Source of the DNA: Arthrobacter wenxiniae
GTDB lineage: Bacteria > Actinomycetota > Actinomycetes > Actinomycetales > Micrococcaceae
DNA: 56,826 nt
Direction of reading: 5' to 3'
Assembly: GCF_013376105.1 (NCBI RefSeq)
Contig: NZ_JAAMFM010000029.1
Location: 1-56,826 of the forward strand
Notes under the pieces: model-generated
Told to the model about the DNA's origin: nothing
The model's database searches: none
Seen by the model: only the letters and a program-made list of their open reading frames with translations
In this document: positions 25,832 through 35,975 of the stretch, piece after piece
Position numbering within the stretch: the first letter of the stretch is position 1
How the letters are laid out: each line of letters starts with the position of its first letter
Made by a program: the position numbers and the translations under genes

Positions 25832-26827
25832 GTGACCATCATTGACAACGGCGTGTACGTGGACGGTGTCCGCGTCTCCTCCCCGGTAAGCCTCGACCAG
25901 ACCTACGAAGCCATGGCGGCGTGCGGCGGCATGGCATGGATCGGCCTGTTCCGCCCCGACGCCGCGGAAATGGCGTCGCTCGCCGCCGAATTCCAGCTCC
26001 ATGAGCTCGCCGTGGAAGACGCCATCAAGGCGCACCAGCGGCCCAAGATGGAGAGGTACGACGACGTCCTGTTCACTGTGCTGCGCCCCGCACGCTACCT
26101 GGATGCGGAGGAGGCGGTCGAGTTTGGCGAGTTGCATGTTTTCACCGGGCCGAACTTCGTCATAACCATCCGGCACGCCGAAACGCCCGGGCTCGCGTCC
26201 ACCAGGCACCGGCTGGAGGAGGACGCGGCCCTGCTTGCCCGGGGCCCCGAGGCCGTCCTGTACGCCATCATGGACCAGGTGGTAGACGATTACCTGCCCG
26301 TGGTCAGCGGGCTGGAAAACGACATTGACGAGATCGAGGACCAGCTGTTTGCCGGCTACCCCCATGTCTCGCGCAGGATTTACCAGCTATCCCGCGAGGT
26401 CATCCACTTCCAGCGCGCCATCCACCCGCTCCGTGAGACGCTCGGACGGCTCAAGGCGGGGTTTGAGAAGTACGGCGTCGACGTGGAGCTCCAGCGCTAC
26501 CTGCGCGACGTCGAGGACCACGTGGAGTCGCTGACCGCGAAGTCCGACTCCTTCCGGCAGCTGCTGCAAAATGCGCTCACCGTGGACGGCACGCTCACCG
26601 CCAACCGCCAGAACGAGGCCAGCACCGCACAAAACGAACAGGTCAAGAAGATCTCCTCCTGGGCCGCCATCCTGTTCGCCCCGACGTTCGTGGCCGGCGT
26701 CTACGGCATGAACTTCCACAACATGCCGGAGCTGGCGTGGCCGTGGGGCTACCCGATGGCGATCGGCCTCATGGTCCTCATCGGAGCCGCCATGTACGTG
26801 ATTTTCAAGCGGAAGACCTGGCTGTAG
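25832..26827 (+). CDS. corA: CorA-type magnesium/cobalt channel
   Basis: The 331-residue protein ends with two transmembrane helices and the diagnostic YGMNFHNMPE motif (GMN about residues 290-292) between them. It has a large N-terminal cytoplasmic domain and a long helix (LLQNALTVDGTLTANRQNE, then STAQNEQVKKISSWAAIL). CorA pentamers move Mg2+ and Co2+ across the membrane. The start is GTG at 25832; upstream codons in that frame belong to the AsnC gene region. Its last 23 bp overlap the 3-prime end of bioD on the opposite strand. Confidence 0.93.
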   Translation: MTIIDNGVYVDGVRVSSPVSLDQTYEAMAACGGMAWIGLFRPDAAEMASLAAEFQLHELAVEDAIKAHQRPKMERYDDVLFTVLRPARYLDAEEAVEFGELHVFTGPNFVITIRHAETPGLASTRHRLEEDAALLARGPEAVLYAIMDQVVDDYLPVVSGLENDIDEIEDQLFAGYPHVSRRIYQLSREVIHFQRAIHPLRETLGRLKAGFEKYGVDVELQRYLRDVEDHVESLTAKSDSFRQLLQNALTVDGTLTANRQNEASTAQNEQVKKISSWAAILFAPTFVAGVYGMNFHNMPELAWPWGYPMAIGLMVLIGAAMYVIFKRKTWL

Positions 26828-27551
26828 CGCTGCGGCGGCGCGTCGGCCCGGCCGCGGCAGGCAGGCGCAGCCAGTCCGGCGCCTGTTCCTGGAAGGTGTG
26901 CGGGTCCAGGCCGGCGGCCCCGGCCGGCAGCGCACCCAAATACGGGGTGGGCAGCCGCTGGAAATAGCTGCGGTTGTCCTCGTCAATGACCGACGGCGAT
27001 GCCGGCCAGGAGCCCACCACCAGTCCGGCGGCGGGCAGGCCGCGGCGTTCCAGTGCCTCCAGCGTCAGCAGGGTGTGGTTCAGCGTGCCCAGGCCGCTGC
27101 GGCAGGCCACAACGATCCTGCAGCGGGCGGCCCCGGCCGCTCGTCCCACAGCCGCCGCGAGGTCCGCGACGGTGTGGCCCTCCGCGTCCAGCTCCACGAG
27201 CAGGCCGCCTGCGCCTTCGACGAGGACGTGGTCGAAGCCCGCGGCCAGTCCCGAGATCCGGTCCACATGGTGCGCCAGTGCCGGCAGCGCCCGGCCTTCG
27301 CGGGCTGCGGCGGCCACCGGCGCCATGGGGGCAAGGAGACGGATGCCTTCACAGACCGTCCCGACGCCGGAGAGCCGGGCCACCTCGTCCATGTCGCCGG
27401 TGCCGCCCGGGGCCACTCCCGTCTGGGTCGGCTTGTAGGCGGCCACGGCGGCCCCGCCGGCGGCGAGCGCGGCGGCGAGGGCCGCCGTCGTGACGGTCTT
27501 GCCGACGTCGGTGTCCGTGCCGGTGACAAAGGTGATGGCGGCTTCTTTCAC
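26805..27551 (-). CDS. bioD: Dethiobiotin synthase
   Basis: BioD closes the ureido ring of biotin using ATP and CO2. The 248-residue protein has the P-loop FVTGTDTDVGKTVTTAAL (about residues 8-25), YKPTQTGV, and VLVEGAGGLLVELD with the conserved acidic and Gly residues. The start is GTG at 27551, overlapping the TGA of the upstream P450 gene as GTGA, so translation is coupled. It is the last gene of the biotin operon. The C-terminal end runs 23 bp into corA on the other strand. Confidence 0.94.
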   Translation of the reverse strand: MKEAAITFVTGTDTDVGKTVTTAALAAALAAGGAAVAAYKPTQTGVAPGGTGDMDEVARLSGVGTVCEGIRLLAPMAPVAAAAREGRALPALAHHVDRISGLAAGFDHVLVEGAGGLLVELDAEGHTVADLAAAVGRAAGAARCRIVVACRSGLGTLNHTLLTLEALERRGLPAAGLVVGSWPASPSVIDEDNRSYFQRLPTPYLGALPAGAAGLDPHTFQEQAPDWLRLPAAAGPTRRRSATARSSA

Positions 27552-28684
27552 GGTTTTCCTTGGGTCGCGGTGACGGTGAGCGGGGCCTGGAAGGACAGCA
27601 GCCGCAGCCACTGCGGCGGCTGCCCGGCCAGGCGCAGCCCGGGAAGGGCGGCGGCGGTCTCCTGCACGACCAGCACGGTCTCCAGTTCGGCCAGCCGGGC
27701 CCCAAGGCAGCGGTGCAGGCCGTGGCCGAAGGCCAGCGAATAGGCGGTGGGCCCCGCCTCGGCGGGGTGGCGTCCGCTGAGTTCGAGCAGGATCTCCGCC
27801 CCCGCCGGCAGGCTCGCGCCGGCCAGCATCGTGTCGCGGAGGGCGGCCCGCCGCCAGGTGTGGACGGAGGACTCGGTGGCGAGGACCCGGCGGACGTGGG
27901 CCTGTGCCTTCTCGTGCGCGGCCAGGGCGGCCCATGGGACGGCGGCCGGGGCCCCGAAGGCGTCCACTTCCGGGGCTCCGGAGGCGTCCGCTTCCGGAGC
28001 ACCGGCGGCGTCCGCGGAGTCAAGGCCGCGGTACAGGGCCGTGTTGATGAGCTGCGAGGTGGTCTCCTGCCCGGCGATGACCAAGAAATACCCCAGCGAG
28101 CACACTTCGGCGGCGTCCAGTCCGGCCGCGTCCAGCACCCCGAACAGGGACGCCGTGCCGCGGGCACGCGCGGCCTCCTCCCGGAGCCACACGTAGAATT
28201 CGGCGGCACTGTGCGCCAGGACCTGCTGCCGGTCCGGGTCCGGCCAGCCCCAGAACAGCTCAAGCGAATCGCGGCTCCAGCGCTTGAGAAGGCCCAGCTC
28301 CGGGGTCGGATGGCCCGTCAGCTCGGCCATGACGAGAGGCGGGATGTGGCGGGCCACGGCGTCGGCCAGGTCCACGGGCCCGTGCAGCAGCCCGGCCGCC
28401 GCGACGGCCAGCCGCTGCCGCGCCAGTTCACGCACCCGCGGCGCGATGGCGGCCACCTTGGCAGGCGTGAAGAACCGCCCCACCACGGTCCGCACGGTGC
28501 GGTGCCGCTCCCCCGTGGCGGAGGCCAGCACGGGCGGCAGGGCAAAACGCACCCTGCTCAGGATGCGCAGGGTGGCCGGGGCCAGCGGCACCACCGACGT
28601 CAGCGCGTTTGTCGGGGCAAAGTCCTCCGTGCGGCGCATGACCTCGCGCACCTGCACAGGGTCCCCGATCACCGTGAAGGTCAT
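27548..28684 (-). CDS. Divergent cytochrome P450 inside the biotin operon, lacking ExxR
   Basis: The 378-residue protein keeps the P450 heme-Cys motif (AFGHGLHRCLGARLAELE, C326), the I-helix AGQETTS (about 204-210) and the C-helix HRTVRTVVGRFFTP. The K-helix position that should read ExxR is RRVLA (about 265-269), and the meander between K helix and Cys loop is shortened to about 20 residues (ELSGRHPAEAGPTAYSL), so the whole Glu-Arg-Arg triad is missing. A repeat-like Ala/Gly/Pro/Asp insert (about 222-250) replaces the J helix. It overlaps bioF (ATGA) and bioD (GTGA). By position it could be a BioI-like pimelate-forming enzyme, but its fold or activity may be altered. No redox partner gene is adjacent. 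Confidence 0.85.
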   Translation of the reverse strand: MTFTVIGDPVQVREVMRRTEDFAPTNALTSVVPLAPATLRILSRVRFALPPVLASATGERHRTVRTVVGRFFTPAKVAAIAPRVRELARQRLAVAAAGLLHGPVDLADAVARHIPPLVMAELTGHPTPELGLLKRWSRDSLELFWGWPDPDRQQVLAHSAAEFYVWLREEAARARGTASLFGVLDAAGLDAAEVCSLGYFLVIAGQETTSQLINTALYRGLDSADAAGAPEADASGAPEVDAFGAPAAVPWAALAAHEKAQAHVRRVLATESSVHTWRRAALRDTMLAGASLPAGAEILLELSGRHPAEAGPTAYSLAFGHGLHRCLGARLAELETVLVVQETAAALPGLRLAGQPPQWLRLLSFQAPLTVTATQGKP

Positions 28685-29853
28685 GCGGCACCCACTGCCC
28701 GGGCGACGGCGGCGGCTGCCCGGTCCAGTTCCCCGTCACTCAGGTTCGCCCGGGCCGTGAGGCGCAGTCGGGACACGCCGTCGGGCACGCTGGGCGGGCG
28801 GAAGCACCCCACGGCCACGCCCGCGTGGCGCAGTCCGGCGGCCAGCGAAGCGGCGCGGTCCGCCGTCCCGACGGGGATGGACTGCACGGCGCCGGCCGCG
28901 GCAACCGTCCCGCACCGCTGCGCCAGCGCGGCGGCGTTGCCAAGCACACGCCGGGCCAGCGCGGGTTCCGCCAGCACGATCCGCGCAGCCTCGGCCGCTG
29001 CCGCCGCCGCGGAAGGCGCCAGGGCCGTGTCGAAGATGAAGGTCCGCGCCGTGTTGGCCAAGTGCTCGCGCAGCAGCTGCGAGCCCAGGACGGCGCCGCC
29101 CTGCGAGCCGAGTGCCTTGGACAGCGTGGCCGTGACGGCCACATGCGCCGCACCGGCGAGCCCGGCCGCATGCACGGCCCCGCGGCCGGCACCGGCCACC
29201 CCGATCCCGTGCGCCTCGTCGACCAGCAGCAGCGCGTCGTATTCGCCGCACAGGGCCGCCGCCTCCGCCAGCGGGGCGGCGTCCCCCAGCACCGAATAGA
29301 TGGATTCAAGCACGACGACGGCCCGTGGCTGGGTGCGCCCGGCCAGTGCCGCCCTGATCCCCGCCGTGTCCTGGTGGGCCACGGACACTGACGGCGAGCG
29401 CGAGAGCCGGATGCCGTCGAGCAGCGAGGCGTGCACGTGGGCGTCGTGGACCATGAGGGTTCCGGGGCCGCCCAGTGCCGCAAGCACCCCCAGGTTGGCG
29501 GTGTAGCCGCTGGAGAAGGCCAGCGCGGCGTCCTGGCCGGTGAGCAGGCACAGCCGCCGCTCCAAGTCCAGGTGGGCGGACGTGGTGCCGCACACCACCC
29601 GGGACGCGCGGGCACCGGCACCGTGCTCGGACAGCGCCCTGGCGGCGGCGGCGATGACGCGCGGGTCGGCGGACAGCCCCAGGTAGTCGTTGGAGGCCAG
29701 ATCGATGAGCCGTGGCGGCAGCTCCGTGCCGCGGACAAGCCCGCGCCGTGCGCGGACGGCGGCCCGGGAGGCCAGCCAGGCGTCCATGGCCGTCGCTGGG
29801 CCTGGCGCCGCCGTGCCTGGCGCCGCCGTGCCTGGTGCACCCAAGCCGGCCAT
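28681..29853 (-). CDS. bioF: 8-amino-7-oxononanoate synthase
   Basis: BioF condenses pimeloyl-thioester with alanine. The 390-residue alpha-oxoamine synthase has SNDYLGLSADPRV, GARASRVVCGTTSAHLDLER, VHDAHVHASLLDGIRLSR, the aspartate motif LLVDEAHGIGVAG, and the PLP lysine K246 in TLSKALGSQGG. The N-terminus carries a short GTAAP-type tandem repeat (a 15-bp direct repeat in the DNA) not needed for the fold. Start and stop overlap neighbours as ATGA at both ends, indicating translational coupling with bioA and the P450. Confidence 0.95.
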   Translation of the reverse strand: MAGLGAPGTAAPGTAAPGPATAMDAWLASRAAVRARRGLVRGTELPPRLIDLASNDYLGLSADPRVIAAAARALSEHGAGARASRVVCGTTSAHLDLERRLCLLTGQDAALAFSSGYTANLGVLAALGGPGTLMVHDAHVHASLLDGIRLSRSPSVSVAHQDTAGIRAALAGRTQPRAVVVLESIYSVLGDAAPLAEAAALCGEYDALLLVDEAHGIGVAGAGRGAVHAAGLAGAAHVAVTATLSKALGSQGGAVLGSQLLREHLANTARTFIFDTALAPSAAAAAAEAARIVLAEPALARRVLGNAAALAQRCGTVAAAGAVQSIPVGTADRAASLAAGLRHAGVAVGCFRPPSVPDGVSRLRLTARANLSDGELDRAAAAVARAVGAA

Positions 29854-31193
29854 CAGCCGTGCACCCGGGCGACGGCCGCGCGGATGCCGGCGCCGATCGT
29901 GGCGACATCCTCCGGTGTGCTGGTGTACGGCGGCATGGTGTAGACGAGGTTGCGGAAGGGCCGCACCCACACGCCGAGTTCCAGCGCCGCGCGCGTCACC
30001 GCCGGCACGTTGACCGGCCCGGTGAGTTCGACCACGCCCACCGCTCCGAGTACACGCACCTCCCGGACGGCAGCGAGGGAGGCGGCCGGGGCCAGGGTGG
30101 CCTGCAGGCCCCGCTCGATCCCCAACACCTGGTCCTTCCAGCCAGCGGAGACCAGCAGTTCCAGGGACGCGCAGGCGACGGCGCAGGCCAAGGGGTTGCC
30201 CATGAAGGTGGGCCCGTGCAGCAGGGCGCGCAGCGGCGAGGCCGTGATGGCGCGGGCGACGTCCGCCGAACACAGCGTTGCAGCCAGCGTGAGGTAGCCG
30301 CCCGTCAGCGCCTTGCCCACGCACATGATGTCCGGGACCACGCCCGCCCAGTCGGAGCCAAAAAGCTTCCCCGTCCGGCCCAGGCCGGTGGCGATCTCGT
30401 CGCCAATGAGCAGCAGCCCGTTGTCGCTGGCCACGCGCCGGGCCGCGGCGAGCGCACCTGGGGCGTAGGCGTGCATGCCGCCGGCGCCCTGCAGCACCGG
30501 CTCCAGGATGATGGCGGCCAGCTCGTCGCGGTGGCGGGCCACGGTGTCCTCAAGGACGCCGACCCAGCGGGCGAGCTCGTCCGCGTCGGCCACCAGTTCG
30601 CCGCCCAGCTGCCGGGCGGCGGGCGGGCGGGGCAGGAAAAGCTGTTCGGCAATGAGTGACGGAAAGGCCGAGTGCATGCCGTCCACCGGATCGCACACGC
30701 CCATGGCGGCAAACGTGTCCCCGTGGTAGCCGCCGCGCAGCGCCAGGAACCGCGTCCGCCGGGGCCGGCCGCGGCCCAGCTGGTACTGCACGGCCAGCTT
30801 CAGGGCCACCTCCACGGACACCGAGCCGGAGTCCGCCAGGAACACGTGGTCCAGGCCGCCCGGCGTCATTGCCACGAGCCGTTCGGCCAGCTCGACGGCC
30901 GGCGCGTGGGTCAGTCCGCCGAACATGACGTGGCTGAAGCGGCCGGCCTGCTCCAGGAGGGCGCGGTCCAGCACGGGGTTGCGGTAGCCGTGGATGGCGG
31001 ACCACCAGGAACTCATGGCGTCCACGGCCTCGAACCGGGTGCCGTCGGCCGCGCCCAGGCTCAGCCGCGTCCCGGACGCGCCAAGGACGGCGTAGGGCGC
31101 GTCGCCGTCCAGCGGCGCGTAGGGGTGCCACAGCAGCCCCCTGTCTCGGGCTATCAGCTCGGGGGCTGCGGCCGGTGCCGCGCACTCAGGCAT
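29853..31193 (-). CDS. bioA: Adenosylmethionine-8-amino-7-oxononanoate aminotransferase
   Basis: BioA converts KAPA to DAPA with SAM as amino donor. The 446-residue class III aminotransferase has [11 protein letters not shown], the diagnostic [82 protein letters not shown] and the PLP lysine in [17 protein letters not shown]. The start at 31193 lies eight bases inside the 3-prime end of bioB. It is the second gene of the operon. Confidence 0.95.
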
Positions 31194-32280
31194 TGGGGGC
31201 CACGGCCGTCCCCGCCCCGCGGCGGCGGATGGTGGCGGGCGCGCCCGGGGAGGCGCCGGCGTCGTCCGCCGCCTCCGGCCGGGAGGACGGGCCGGAAGAG
31301 CCGGTGCCCAGGACCACAAAGCCGTTGTCGGCGATCATGTCCAGGTCGGCCCGTCCTTCCTGACCTTCGCTGGTGAGATAGTCGCCCAGGAAGAGGGAGT
31401 TCGCCACGTGCAGGGCGAGGGGCTGGAGGGTGCGCAGGTGCATTTCGCGCCCGCCGGCCATGCGGAGCTCGGTGGCGGGGCAGGCGAAGCGGACCATGGC
31501 CAGGATGCGCAGGCACTGGGCCGGCGTGAGCAGCCAGGTGCCTTCCAGCGGCGTGCCGTCGAAGGGCATGAGGAAGTTGACCGGGATCGATTCGCTGCCG
31601 AGCGCGCGGAGGGTGAAGACGGCGTCGACGAGGTCGCTGTTGCTCTCCCCCATGCCGGCGATCAGTCCGGAGCACGGCGACAGGCCGGCGTCCTTGGCGT
31701 GCTCCACGGTCTGCACGCGCTCGGTGAAGGTGTGCGTGGAGCAGATGTCGGCGTAGTTGCTTTCGCTGGTGTTGAGGTTGTGGTTGTAGGCGTCGACGCC
31801 GGCGTCCTTGAGGCGCCCGGCCTGCCCGCCCTTCAGGATGCCCAGGCAGGCGCAGACCTCCACGCCCGGGTGCTCGCCCTTGAGGCCGGCGACCATGCCC
31901 GCCACGCGGTCCACGTCGCGGTCGCTGGGGCCGCGGCCGCTGGCCACCAGGCAGACCCGCGAGGCCCCGGCGCGGATGCCGGTGGCCGCCTGGGCCGCCG
32001 CCTCCTCCGGCTTGAGCCAGCTGTACTTCAGGATCTGGGCGGCCGAGCCGAGGCGCTGGGAGCAGTAGGTGCAGTCTTCCGGGCACAGGCCGGATTTCAG
32101 GTTGACGAGGTAGTTCACCTTGACGGTGTTGGCGAAGTGGGCCCGGCGCAGGCGGGCGGCGGCGGCCACAACGTCCAGCAGCTGGGCGTCGGATGATTCG
32201 AGGACGGCGAGGGCTTCTTCGCGGCTCAGGGTGGCGCCGGCGAGCTGCCGGTCGGCGAGGTCTTGAAAGTAATTGAACAC
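31186..32280 (-). CDS. bioB: Biotin synthase
   Basis: BioB is a radical SAM enzyme that inserts sulfur into dethiobiotin. The 364-residue protein has the CxxxCxxC cluster (C66, C70, C73 in [12 protein letters not shown]), the second-cluster Cys residues and the EVCACLGIL and [11 protein letters not shown] segments of the family. The predicted start is GTG at 32280 with no ribosome binding site; a -10 box lies just upstream, so the mRNA may be leaderless. A BioQ-type palindrome covers this start. A C-terminal Ala/Pro/Arg extension of about 35 residues follows the core. Confidence 0.95.
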
Positions 32281-32287
32281 CGTTCAA
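32273..32287. promoter_or_regulatory. BioQ-type operator on the bioB start codon
   Basis: TTGAACACCGTTCAA is a perfect 6-3-6 palindrome that includes the bioB GTG start. BioQ regulators of actinobacteria bind TGAAC-N3-GTTxx palindromes in front of bio genes, and a BioQ-like TetR gene lies divergently 180 bp away. Binding here would block both the -10 box and the transcription start. The match was made by eye. Confidence 0.75.
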
Positions 32288-33111: not shown

Positions 33112-34392
33112 CTACGTCCGCGCCAGCGCCTCAATGTCCTCCAGGAAGTCCTGGGCCACCGCGTCGCTGACGGTGGCACGGGTGTCCGCAATGGTCTCCA
33201 GGTAGTCGGCGGTGACGGGCCCGCCCGCCGGGGCGCCGCCGTCGTACACGGCCTTTTCCAGGGCGCGCTGGGACGCGCTGCGGGCGGCAAACTCGATGTC
33301 CGCCGGGGAGAAGCCGGCGCTGGCGGTGACCAGCCCCGCCACGTCCACCCGGTCCAGCGCGGCGGCCGGAATGAAGCGCGTCCACATGGCGGTGCGGGCC
33401 TCGGCATCGGGCAGGCCGATGGGGATGACGTAGTCGAAGCGGCCGTGGCGCAGGAAGGCCGAGTCCAGCGAGCGGATGAAGTTCGTGGCGCACACCAGCA
33501 GACGGCCGGGCTGGTCGCGGAACGCCGGGATGATCTTCAGCAGCTCATTGGTGACGCCCTGCATGGGCGACGGCGGCTCGCCTGAGCGCTGCGAGGCGAT
33601 CTCCTCGACCTCGTCGATGAACACGACCGCGTGCTCCAGCTCCGCGATGTCCAGGAACGTCTGCCGCAGGGCCCCGGCCAGCCCGCCCGGCTCCCCCGCG
33701 AGACGCGAGGGGAAAACCTCCACAAACGGCCACTCGAGCCGGGACGCGATGGCCTTGGCGAAAGTCGTCTTCCCGGTCCCGGGAGGGCCGAACAGCACCA
33801 CGGCGCGCGGCGGCACCACCCCGAACTCCTCCGCCAGCTCCGACTCGGCCAGCGGCAGGACCAGCCTGCGCTCCAGCAGCTCCTTTTCCGCCGTCATGCC
33901 CGCCACGCGGTCCCAGAGGTCGCGCGGGAGGAGCCTGCCGCCGAGCTCCTCCAGCGCCCCGAGCTCGGCGCGCTGGACGGGGACCCGTCGCTCAAAGTAG
34001 CGCAGGTTTTTCTTCACCACGAAGCCACGGTTGGAAAACGCCTCCACGCGCGTCTCGGTTTCCGGCATGAGGGCGGAAAGCTTGTTGAGCCCGTGCGCCG
34101 CCATGCGGTTTTCGACGGCGGCCAGCAGCGAGGTGCCGATCCCCCGGCCGCGGAACGGCGGCAGGGTGGACAGGAACACGATCCATCCCTGGTCGTGCGC
34201 CGCCCGGGCCACGGCGGCGCCCACCAGCTGCTCGCCGTGGACGGCCACCACGGCATGGTCCTTTTCGCAAGAGGCCAGCACCTCGGACAGGTCGTAGACG
34301 GGCTCCACGCCGTTGGCCCTCAGCGACTGCCACAGGGCCAGGATCCCCTCCACGTCCTGCGGATGAAAGTCGCGAATCTTCCACGTCGTCAT
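33112..34392 (-). CDS. Fusion of GNAT acetyltransferase and AAA+ ATPase
   Basis: The 426-residue protein joins two unrelated domains. Residues 1-135 are a GNAT domain with the acetyl-CoA loop RGRGIGT (81-87). Residues about 165-410 are an AAA+ domain with Walker A GPPGTGKTT (202-210), Walker B VVFIDE (256-261) and FLRHGRFDYVIPIGLP carrying the putative Arg finger. The AAA part is closest in look to FtsH/Cdc48-like remodelers but has no protease domain. AAGGGAG lies before the ATG at 34392. It could acetylate a protein as it is unfolded, or use ATP to gate acetylation. The target is unknown. Confidence 0.85.
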   Translation of the reverse strand: MTTWKIRDFHPQDVEGILALWQSLRANGVEPVYDLSEVLASCEKDHAVVAVHGEQLVGAAVARAAHDQGWIVFLSTLPPFRGRGIGTSLLAAVENRMAAHGLNKLSALMPETETRVEAFSNRGFVVKKNLRYFERRVPVQRAELGALEELGGRLLPRDLWDRVAGMTAEKELLERRLVLPLAESELAEEFGVVPPRAVVLFGPPGTGKTTFAKAIASRLEWPFVEVFPSRLAGEPGGLAGALRQTFLDIAELEHAVVFIDEVEEIASQRSGEPPSPMQGVTNELLKIIPAFRDQPGRLLVCATNFIRSLDSAFLRHGRFDYVIPIGLPDAEARTAMWTRFIPAAALDRVDVAGLVTASAGFSPADIEFAARSASQRALEKAVYDGGAPAGGPVTADYLETIADTRATVSDAVAQDFLEDIEALART

Positions 34393-34565
34393 GCTCGCTC
34401 CCTTGCGTCGTGCGGGCCGGCCTGCACACTCCGGTGCCAGCATCATGGCACACCCCCCGTGAATGTGCCCCAATGTGTCCTGTTCCGCGTCCGGCTGGAT
34501 GCCGGCGGTGCGCACAACAGCGTCATGCGTCCTGCCAGTGCCGACGGCTCCGCACCACAGGATTG

Positions 34566-35975
34566 CTACCGCGTCCGCACCACTTCCCCGGCGGAGCGGT
34601 GCATGAGCAGCACCTCCACCACGGGGCAGAGCATCAGCACCGCCAGGACGGCGAACGTCCACTGAAAGCTGGCCACGGGCGCGGCGCCCGCCAGCAGGGC
34701 ACCGGCCGCCCGCAGGATCAACGCCCCGACCGCAACGCCCAGGCCCGTGGCAACCTGGGCGATCGTGGAGGACAGCGTGTTCGCCCCGGACATGCGGGCC
34801 TTCGGCACGTCCGCGAACTGCAGCGTGTTGTAGGCGCTGAAGCCGATGGAGCGCAGCACGCCGCTGGCAAACAGCGCGGCGGCGATCACGGCGAGCGGGG
34901 TGCCGGGCCCCAGCAGCGCACACCAGCCCAGCACCAGGGCGCCGCCCGCGTTGCTGAGCAGCAGCACATTGCGGAAGCCAAGGCGTCGGATCAGCGGCGA
35001 GGTGGCCGGCTTGATCAGGACGTTCCCGGCAAACACGGCCATGGTCATCAACCCGGCCTCAAACGCCGTCCAGCCAAAGCCGACCATGAACATCAGGGGC
35101 AGCACAAACGGCACCGCGTTGATGACCAGCCGGTACACCGCCCCGCCGCCGTTGCCCGACCGGAAGGTCGGGATCCGCAGGGCGCGCAGGTCCAGCAGCG
35201 GATGCCGCGAGCGCCTGAACCACCACAGGGCGGCCGTTCCGCCGGCCAGTGCCAGCAGCAGCCAAAGCACGACGCCGGCCCACGGGGTGGGTGCCGAGCC
35301 CACCTGTTCCAGCCCGATCACCAGGGCGGCGAGGGACGCGCCGCAGAGCACAAAGCCAATCCAGTCCGGCGGCGGCACCTTCCGGGCCCGGATGTCCGGC
35401 ACCACCCGCAGCGCCACCACCTGGGCCACGATCCCGAGCGGGACGTTGATGAGGAAGATCCAGTGCCAGCTGGCATACGTGGTCAGCAGCCCGCCCAGCG
35501 CCGGAGCAATGACGGGGGCCACCAGCGCCGGCCAGGTCAGGTAGGCGATGGCCTCGAGGAATTCCTTCCTGTCCGCGTCGCGCAGCACCACCAGCCGGCC
35601 TACCGGGACCATCATGGCCCCGCCCATGCCCTGCAGCATCCGCGCGGCACAGAGGAAGGCGAGGTTCGGGCTCAAGGCGCACAGCAGCGACGCCGCGGTG
35701 AAGACCGCAATGGCGGCGGTGAAGACCTTCCGGGCGCCAAAGCGTTCGGCCAGCCAGCCGCTGATGGGGATGCCGACGGCGAGGGTGATCAGGTACGCCG
35801 TCATGGCCAGGTTGAGGTCGACAGGCCGGACGTGCAGGTCCGCGGCCATGCCGGCCGCGGCCGTGGCAATGATGGTGCCGTCCAGGATCTCCATGAAGTA
35901 GGTCCCGGCCACCAAGAGCGCCAGGGCGCGGCTGAAGGACCTGGTGCCGGCCGACGTCGCACTGGAGATTCCCAC
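34566..35975 (-). CDS. DHA2-type MFS drug exporter
   Basis: The product of about 469 residues has some 14 hydrophobic segments. The N-terminus VAGTYFMEILDGTIIATAAAG matches the DHA2 (EmrB/QacA) family signature of LDxTIVNVALP type, and the TM2-3 loop is WLAERFGARKVFTAA. TM5 has LGGLLTTYASWHWIFLINVPLG (written here as a location near residues 165-185). Such pumps export drugs or metabolites by proton antiport. The start is uncertain: GTG at 35975 or ATG at 36023; neither has a strong ribosome binding site. It is divergent from the RutE-like gene. Confidence 0.85.
   Translation of the reverse strand: MGISSATSAGTRSFSRALALLVAGTYFMEILDGTIIATAAAGMAADLHVRPVDLNLAMTAYLITLAVGIPISGWLAERFGARKVFTAAIAVFTAASLLCALSPNLAFLCAARMLQGMGGAMMVPVGRLVVLRDADRKEFLEAIAYLTWPALVAPVIAPALGGLLTTYASWHWIFLINVPLGIVAQVVALRVVPDIRARKVPPPDWIGFVLCGASLAALVIGLEQVGSAPTPWAGVVLWLLLALAGGTAALWWFRRSRHPLLDLRALRIPTFRSGNGGGAVYRLVINAVPFVLPLMFMVGFGWTAFEAGLMTMAVFAGNVLIKPATSPLIRRLGFRNVLLLSNAGGALVLGWCALLGPGTPLAVIAAALFASGVLRSIGFSAYNTLQFADVPKARMSGANTLSSTIAQVATGLGVAVGALILRAAGALLAGAAPVASFQWTFAVLAVLMLCPVVEVLLMHRSAGEVVRTR

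Follow-up and report, generated by a model that had tools for sequence, protein, structure and literature searches.

The ExxR triad is near-universal among P450s. A known precedent for P450s without it is CYP157 from Streptomyces (as presented in part of PMC3599690) which, compared by description only, resembles the enzyme presented here in its heme Cys, its incomplete ExxR and its conserved gene neighbourhood, but differs in that the members listed in that source retain the Glu (EVLW, EQSLW), with linkage to conservons. For biotin synthesis, the precedent is BioI (CYP107H1) from Bacillus subtilis, a P450 encoded in the biotin operon, which forms pimeloyl-ACP from acyl-ACP (passages of PMC12915131 and PMC11089781). 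The former paper, from 2025, describes BioI in the section cited as unique to B. subtilis, and states that deletion of bioI leaves the biotin synthesis of this organism unimpaired (PMC12915131). MkpG, from the mkp cluster of Streptomyces, is likened to the present enzyme by description only: it is a P450 proposed to make methyl-pimelate, encoded beside a BioF-like enzyme, but it belongs to secondary metabolism and is called BioI-homologous in the relevant passage (PMC13336041). The BioE diiron oxygenase from Elizabethkingia is a different kind of protein, with non-heme iron and a ferritin-like fold, and is not a P450. In the open-access literature, no publication was found joining biotin operon or bioF, P450 and Arthrobacter (an absence which is weak evidence), and among the matches listed, judging by titles and abstract starts, none deals with an ExxR-less P450 from an actinobacterial biotin operon. 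According to a passage of one survey, a P450 having one signature motif but not the other was scored as a fragment or pseudogene (PMC6408508), and such enzymes may therefore be filtered out.

The window, i.e. the whole stretch of 56,826 nucleotides from Arthrobacter wenxiniae that was analysed, contains a biotin operon in the order bioB-bioA-bioF-P450-bioD. The features considered in this study are the following:

26805..27551, minus strand: bioD
27548..28684, minus strand: P450-like gene (378 aa) without ExxR and meander (from ORF, alignment and model)
27707..27709, minus strand: heme-ligand Cys326 in FGHGLHRCLGA; C in 103/104 sequences, the other having an unread X
27731..27772, minus strand: 14-residue stretch (305-318) in place of the meander (alignment, model)
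27848..27859, minus strand: T-W-R-R, residues 276-279; W, R and R in 104/104 sequences (alignment)
27872..27916, minus strand: K helix, residues 257-271 (helix in model, alignment columns)
27887-27889 and 27878-27880, minus strand: codons of the ExxR columns, R266 and A269 (alignment)
27946..28013, minus strand: strain-specific 24-bp tandem repeat (period 24, 2.8 copies) encoding an Ala/Pro/Asp linker
28058..28075, minus strand: I-helix AGQETT, residues 204-209; A, G, T and T in 104/104 sequences, E in 98/104
28681..29853, minus strand: bioF
29853..31193, minus strand: bioA, start inferred
31186..32280, minus strand: bioB, start codon uncertain (inside the operator)
32274..32286, no strand: BioQ-type operator TGAACACCGTTCA, with the consensus given in part of PMC3398298
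32292..33071, plus strand: divergent TetR-family regulator (PF00440/PF02909), BioQ-like as named by context; likely true start 32469

The bioF stop codon (28683-28681) and the P450 ATG (28684-28682) have 4 bases in common, as do the bioD GTG (27551-27549) and the P450 stop codon (27550-27548), so that the ORF at 27548-28684 on the minus strand lies between bioF and bioD with a 4-base overlap at each end, as described in an earlier note made from the letters of this DNA. The operon contains no bioC, bioH or bioW, in line with that note, which saw none nearby. A search with the P450 as query (E 0.001) gave no second match in the window's genome. The ORF adjoining the BioQ-like gene (33112-34923, minus strand) fuses a GNAT acetyltransferase domain with an AAA ATPase domain.

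The first codon from which bioB could start falls within the operator at 32274-32286, so that the true start may lie elsewhere or the transcript may be leaderless. The sequence type of this operator, TGAAC-N3-GTTCA, corresponds exactly to the predicted BioQ site (PMC3398298, in the part cited). Of 69 loci scanned, all having a bioB over 55% identity, 67 carry it no more than 260 nt away from the projected start of bioB or overlapping that start. A TetR gene, divergent to bioB in the window, was found in 39 of the loci scanned, which is the arrangement of a BioQ regulon. Two BioQ-type sites are present in the window's genome versus one in the reversed control; the second one (C67:6049) lies in the end of a HAD-hydrolase ORF and may be there by chance. 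A second TGAAC-N3-GTTCA copy was also seen in one relative (G014), where it precedes bioY-bioM-bioN-like genes, annotated by eye.

The P450 scores 25.7 bits against PF00067 (cut-off 22.8), which places it in the superfamily, and its AlphaFold model, for which 78 aligned sequences out of the 104 at hand served as input, has a mean pLDDT of 93.2 and a pTM of 0.93. Cys326 is set in the heme-thiolate motif FxxGxxxCxG and, with the counts given above, both this residue and the I-helix AGQETT are indeed kept, as the earlier note had it. Its observation of RRVLA in the K helix instead of ExxR also holds, the corresponding columns being R266-V-L-A269. The K helix itself (257-271) is retained in the model, while the K' helix and the meander are absent from it; the meander segment comprises 14 residues, compared to 26 in canonical relatives, in agreement with the cut meander noted before. 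Helix J is missing as well: its place in the model is taken by a loop (about 228-250, pLDDT about 70) with only a 5-residue helix. The model of a canonical relative, L185 (pLDDT 93.1), has on the other hand an N-terminal helix, helix J (257-264) and a K' helix (317-320) followed by a 17-residue loop at the place of the meander. The claim that an Ala/Pro/Asp insert replaces helix J needs correcting: the insert is a repeat found in this strain alone, and the linker between helices I and K is of 12-20 aa in 89 of 94 orthologs. Other long linkers are seen elsewhere, with 37 residues in L046, 43 in L051 and 28 in two more orthologs.

The absence of the triad is a feature of the lineage and not a quirk of one strain. 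Among 94 full-length orthologs, 93 of which are from Micrococcaceae and one from Knoellia subterranea (L045), only five (L084, L086, L093, L095 and L096) have both E and R; 11 have just the E, one just the R and 77 neither. All 94 are found with bioF and bioD on a single strand. The Glu column (H in 20, R in 19, Q in 17, E in 16, others in the rest) has an entropy that ranks at the protein's 90th percentile; in the Arg column, 77 of the 94 have Ala. Close by, S273 and V274 are found in 94/94 orthologs, position 273 being Pro in 8 of 10 far relatives. The meander motif is present in 0/94 orthologs versus 7/10 far relatives. The stretch from L-x-L-x-G to FGxGxH measures 8-14 residues in 74 orthologs and 15-34 in the other 20, compared to 26 in the eight far relatives with ExxR, seven of which have the meander motif. 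Unlike the CYP157 members listed, which retain the Glu, 77 of the 94 orthologs lack both ExxR residues, and the meander motif is missing from all 94. An E-x-x-R one helical turn upstream (262/265) occurs in 13 of the 94 orthologs, including L093 and L096 which also have the canonical one, and may constitute a shifted E..R pair in these sequences. R265 is present in 67 of the 94; the window P450 has it too but lacks E262, so a shifted ExxR was rejected for this protein.

The ten far relatives, all of which were examined, lie outside the family; they were found in overlapping draws of 396 genomes from the order (E 1e-27) and 394 from the class (E 1e-25). Eight have both ExxR and a 26-aa loop. 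Three of these (L184, L185 and L190) directly adjoin bio genes on the same strand (bioA and bioB only for L190), in two (L188 and L189) the P450 lies 2.2-4.4 kb from bioD on the opposite strand, and for L187, L191 and L192 no bio gene was found within about 7-8 kb. The latter three genomes measure about 7 Mb, and the P450 of L187 sits between genes for a 6-phosphogluconate dehydrogenase and a SpoIIE-type phosphatase. The remaining two relatives lack ExxR: L183 has RxxA and a loop of 14 residues and is found inside a bio operon, and L186, which adjoins bioD, has QxxR and a loop of 8. The meander is absent in every sequence that has lost ExxR, and the five orthologs with ExxR lack the meander too. 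On a tree built without the K-helix columns, ExxR changes state 4 times, a number as low being reached in 0/500 shuffles. This tree has 50 rows (37 of the 94 orthologs, all 10 far relatives and 3 outgroups, of which out_L141 is 21% filled due to bad extraction), in which the label "other" was given to partial forms such as QxxR or ExxA and to one unreadable row. Most simply, these sequences can be read as a loss of the meander followed by drift of its partners Glu and Arg. Orthologues with the canonical motif, which had been named as grounds for refutation, do exist (8 of 10 far relatives, 5 of 94 orthologs), but they date the loss rather than refute it.

Among solved P450s, the resemblance in sequence to BioI is not specific. 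A phmmer search with the window P450 gave 255 distinct matches, with CreJ first among the best 60 of these, and CreJ (5gwe) was also the best match of the model in Foldseek (TM 0.84). The BioI chains have, at TM 0.76-0.78, the highest values after CreJ and CYP116B among the 50 matches listed. In a profile search of solved sequences, BioI only comes at rank 24 (E 9e-39, compared to 7e-66 for CreJ), and it is absent from the best 60 matches of the single-sequence queries, made with the window P450 and with a canonical relative. Judged by sequence and predicted fold, the window P450 is thus nearer to CreJ and the CYP116B heme domains, its nearest solved sequences and folds among the matches listed, than to Bacillus BioI. 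CreJ differs from it in keeping E-V-L-R in the K helix and in having a longer meander stretch, and residue 35 of CreJ is where the window family's profile begins. With BioI it shares the placement in a biotin operon and the same global fold (3ejb, TM 0.78), but identity in the structural alignment is 18-19%, the window family is meander-less and mostly ExxR-less, and no BioW was found.

The P450 was found in 20 of the 23 genomes of the genus and in 95 of the 395 genomes of the family (E below 1e-40), and all three genus genomes without it also lack bioF (E 1e-50). Across the 395 genomes, 94 have both P450 and bioF, one has the P450 only (G123, truncated by a contig edge), 21 have bioF only and 279 neither, meaning that bioF is present in 94 of 95 genomes with the P450 versus 21 of 300 without, counts which are uncorrected for shared ancestry. 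BioF was searched with the window's own BioF (E below 1e-58), TIGR00858 being confounded by a second, 36-39% identical enzyme which is presumably a glycine C-acetyltransferase. In the bioF search and in the P450 searches of family, order and class at most 4 candidates were scored per genome, and sub-threshold P450 matches were omitted, three outgroups apart. P450, bioF and bioD are on one strand in 94 of 96 loci, the other two being contig-edge halves of one gene. The gene order is bioB-A-F-P450-D in 68 loci, bioA-F-P450-D in 8, in whose stretches no bioB was found, and bioB-A-F-D-P450 in 18. In loci of this last order (L078, L080, L105-L108 and others) bioB is only about 32-35% identical to that of the window, and appears to have been replaced. 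Over 15 close pairs, the P450 has a dN/dS of 0.07-0.32; the values of bioF, bioD and bioA are 0.10-0.30, 0.13-0.34 and 0.11-0.32, with no change at all in one bioA pair. The P450 is therefore under purifying selection comparable to that of bioF. Linkage, co-occurrence with bioF, selection and phylogeny together support a P450 tied to biotin synthesis which evolved without the triad. This part of the earlier proposal is supported; the BioI-like reaction is a putative one, and membership of the BioI lineage is not supported.

BioF needs a pimeloyl thioester, the source of which is not encoded by the other genes of the operon. No match to BioW was obtained in sets of 80 and 21 genomes (99 distinct, two being in both sets), window's genome included. 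TIGR02072 (BioC) has matches in all 80 genomes, none of them over the cut-off; of 14 control genomes, however, just one exceeds it. In an incomplete ORF clustering, whose filter missed many real genes and which was not used for counts, no extra gene other than the P450 was seen to recur within the operons. Considering these points and the precedent of BioI, chemistry of the BioI kind carried out by another P450 lineage is proposed. We find it reasonably probable, by sequence, model and analogy, that the protein is a minimal but working heme-thiolate P450 devoted to biotin synthesis, making the pimeloyl group as BioI does.

The 21 bioF-bearing genomes without P450 (out of 115; six genera, 14 from g6), none of which has a BioW match, indicate that another pimeloyl source exists or that the P450 is dispensable there. 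The bioF match is broken or partial in only three of them (G057, G159 and G270), and one genome with the P450 (G035) has a stop in its bioF match. In the 20 that were fetched, bioA and bioF were found in 20/20, bioD in 19 and bioB in 18, some partial, so that most keep bioBAFD. The four genes are seen without P450 or BioW match in L142-L148, L150, L151, L155 and L157-L161. In the 19 of 20 fetched loci where both bioF and bioD were found, there is no room between them for a gene replacing the P450 (the neighbourhood of L142 was viewed). Such genomes, and the unimpaired biotin synthesis of B. subtilis after bioI deletion as stated in part of PMC12915131, would fit pimeloyl being provided by BioC-BioH-like or other enzymes encoded elsewhere, with the P450 as a redundant side route whose chemistry overlaps with that of the preferred explanation. 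Retention of the P450 in 94 of 115 bioF-bearing genomes, under selection like that on bioF, makes this rather unlikely.

The window's operon contains no redox partner gene. Such genes were found in only four loci of one genus (L098, L128, L129 and L133), with a Rieske ferredoxin ahead of bioB, and with a ferredoxin reductase and a second Rieske-like ferredoxin after bioD; L127 gave the first ferredoxin alone. These flanking proteins are candidate redox partners. A P450 of the biotin pathway with other chemistry, driven by peroxide, for example, or with a shorter acid or some late intermediate as its substrate instead of a long acyl-ACP to be cleaved, would agree with the lack of a partner in the window's operon, with evidence on the substrate that comes from the operon only, and with an acid residue in the I helix that is not strictly conserved (E in 98/104). 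The late steps are however already covered by bioF, bioA, bioD and bioB, and the step missing from the operon, BioW not being found, is the pimeloyl source; we thus regard other chemistry as unlikely.

P450-derived proteins can also have lost catalysis, and P450-derived glycosyltransferase activators act in antibiotic pathways. A non-catalytic role, as a scaffold, a heme or fatty-acid sensor or a partner of BioF or BioD, would account for the loss of a near-universal triad and for the 4-base overlaps with bioF and bioD, and seven relatives have weak matches to TIGR04515 (at most 109.4 bits, all under the cut-off of 343). The window P450 itself has no such match at E 0.01, and the residues expected to go first once catalysis is relaxed are kept. 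In the 78-sequence alignment, Cys326, A204, G205, T208, T209, H61, R65 and W277-R278-R279 are invariant, as are H324, L143, F144 and W145, with Q206 and E207 almost so; some of H61, R65, R278, R279, H324 and C326 presumably contact the heme. Since the oxygen-activation residues are retained, the heme protein with another role which the earlier note had offered as an alternative becomes less likely, and we consider it improbable. A decaying gene, or a sequencing or frameshift error (the latter listed in the earlier note as a possible refutation), would match the missing meander and triad and the 25.7 bits to the Pfam model but is contradicted by 94 full-length orthologs, their dN/dS of 0.07-0.32 and the retained operon, and is hardly credible.

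Under the preferred reading, a P450 devoted to pimeloyl formation, an enzyme from the neighbourhood of CreJ and CYP116B would have been recruited into actinobacterial bio operons, and helix J, the K' helix and the meander would have been lost in this branch. Loss of the meander would have freed its partners in the K helix, Glu and Arg, from constraint, while the residues for heme contact and oxygen activation remained unchanged. The electron donor would be a ferredoxin with its gene elsewhere, and the enzyme would cleave a long acyl chain, of an acyl-ACP or a fatty acid, oxidatively to a C7 pimeloyl unit, which BioF would condense with alanine. The order of losses, heme binding, catalysis and substrate are all inferred here.

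We see an even chance of a wider reading, in which actinobacteria would have evolved an O2-dependent route to pimelate via a P450 from a lineage other than that of BioI, the Micrococcaceae branch would use a minimal enzyme, lacking every part of the triad, in primary metabolism, and the triad would serve only to hold the meander, being unneeded for heme binding or catalysis. The related P450s, many of them in one vitamin operon, form a natural series with ExxR and meander, QxxR without meander, ExxR without meander, and neither, which makes the purpose of the P450 triad directly testable. For a large soil family, they also represent a possible source of pimelate.
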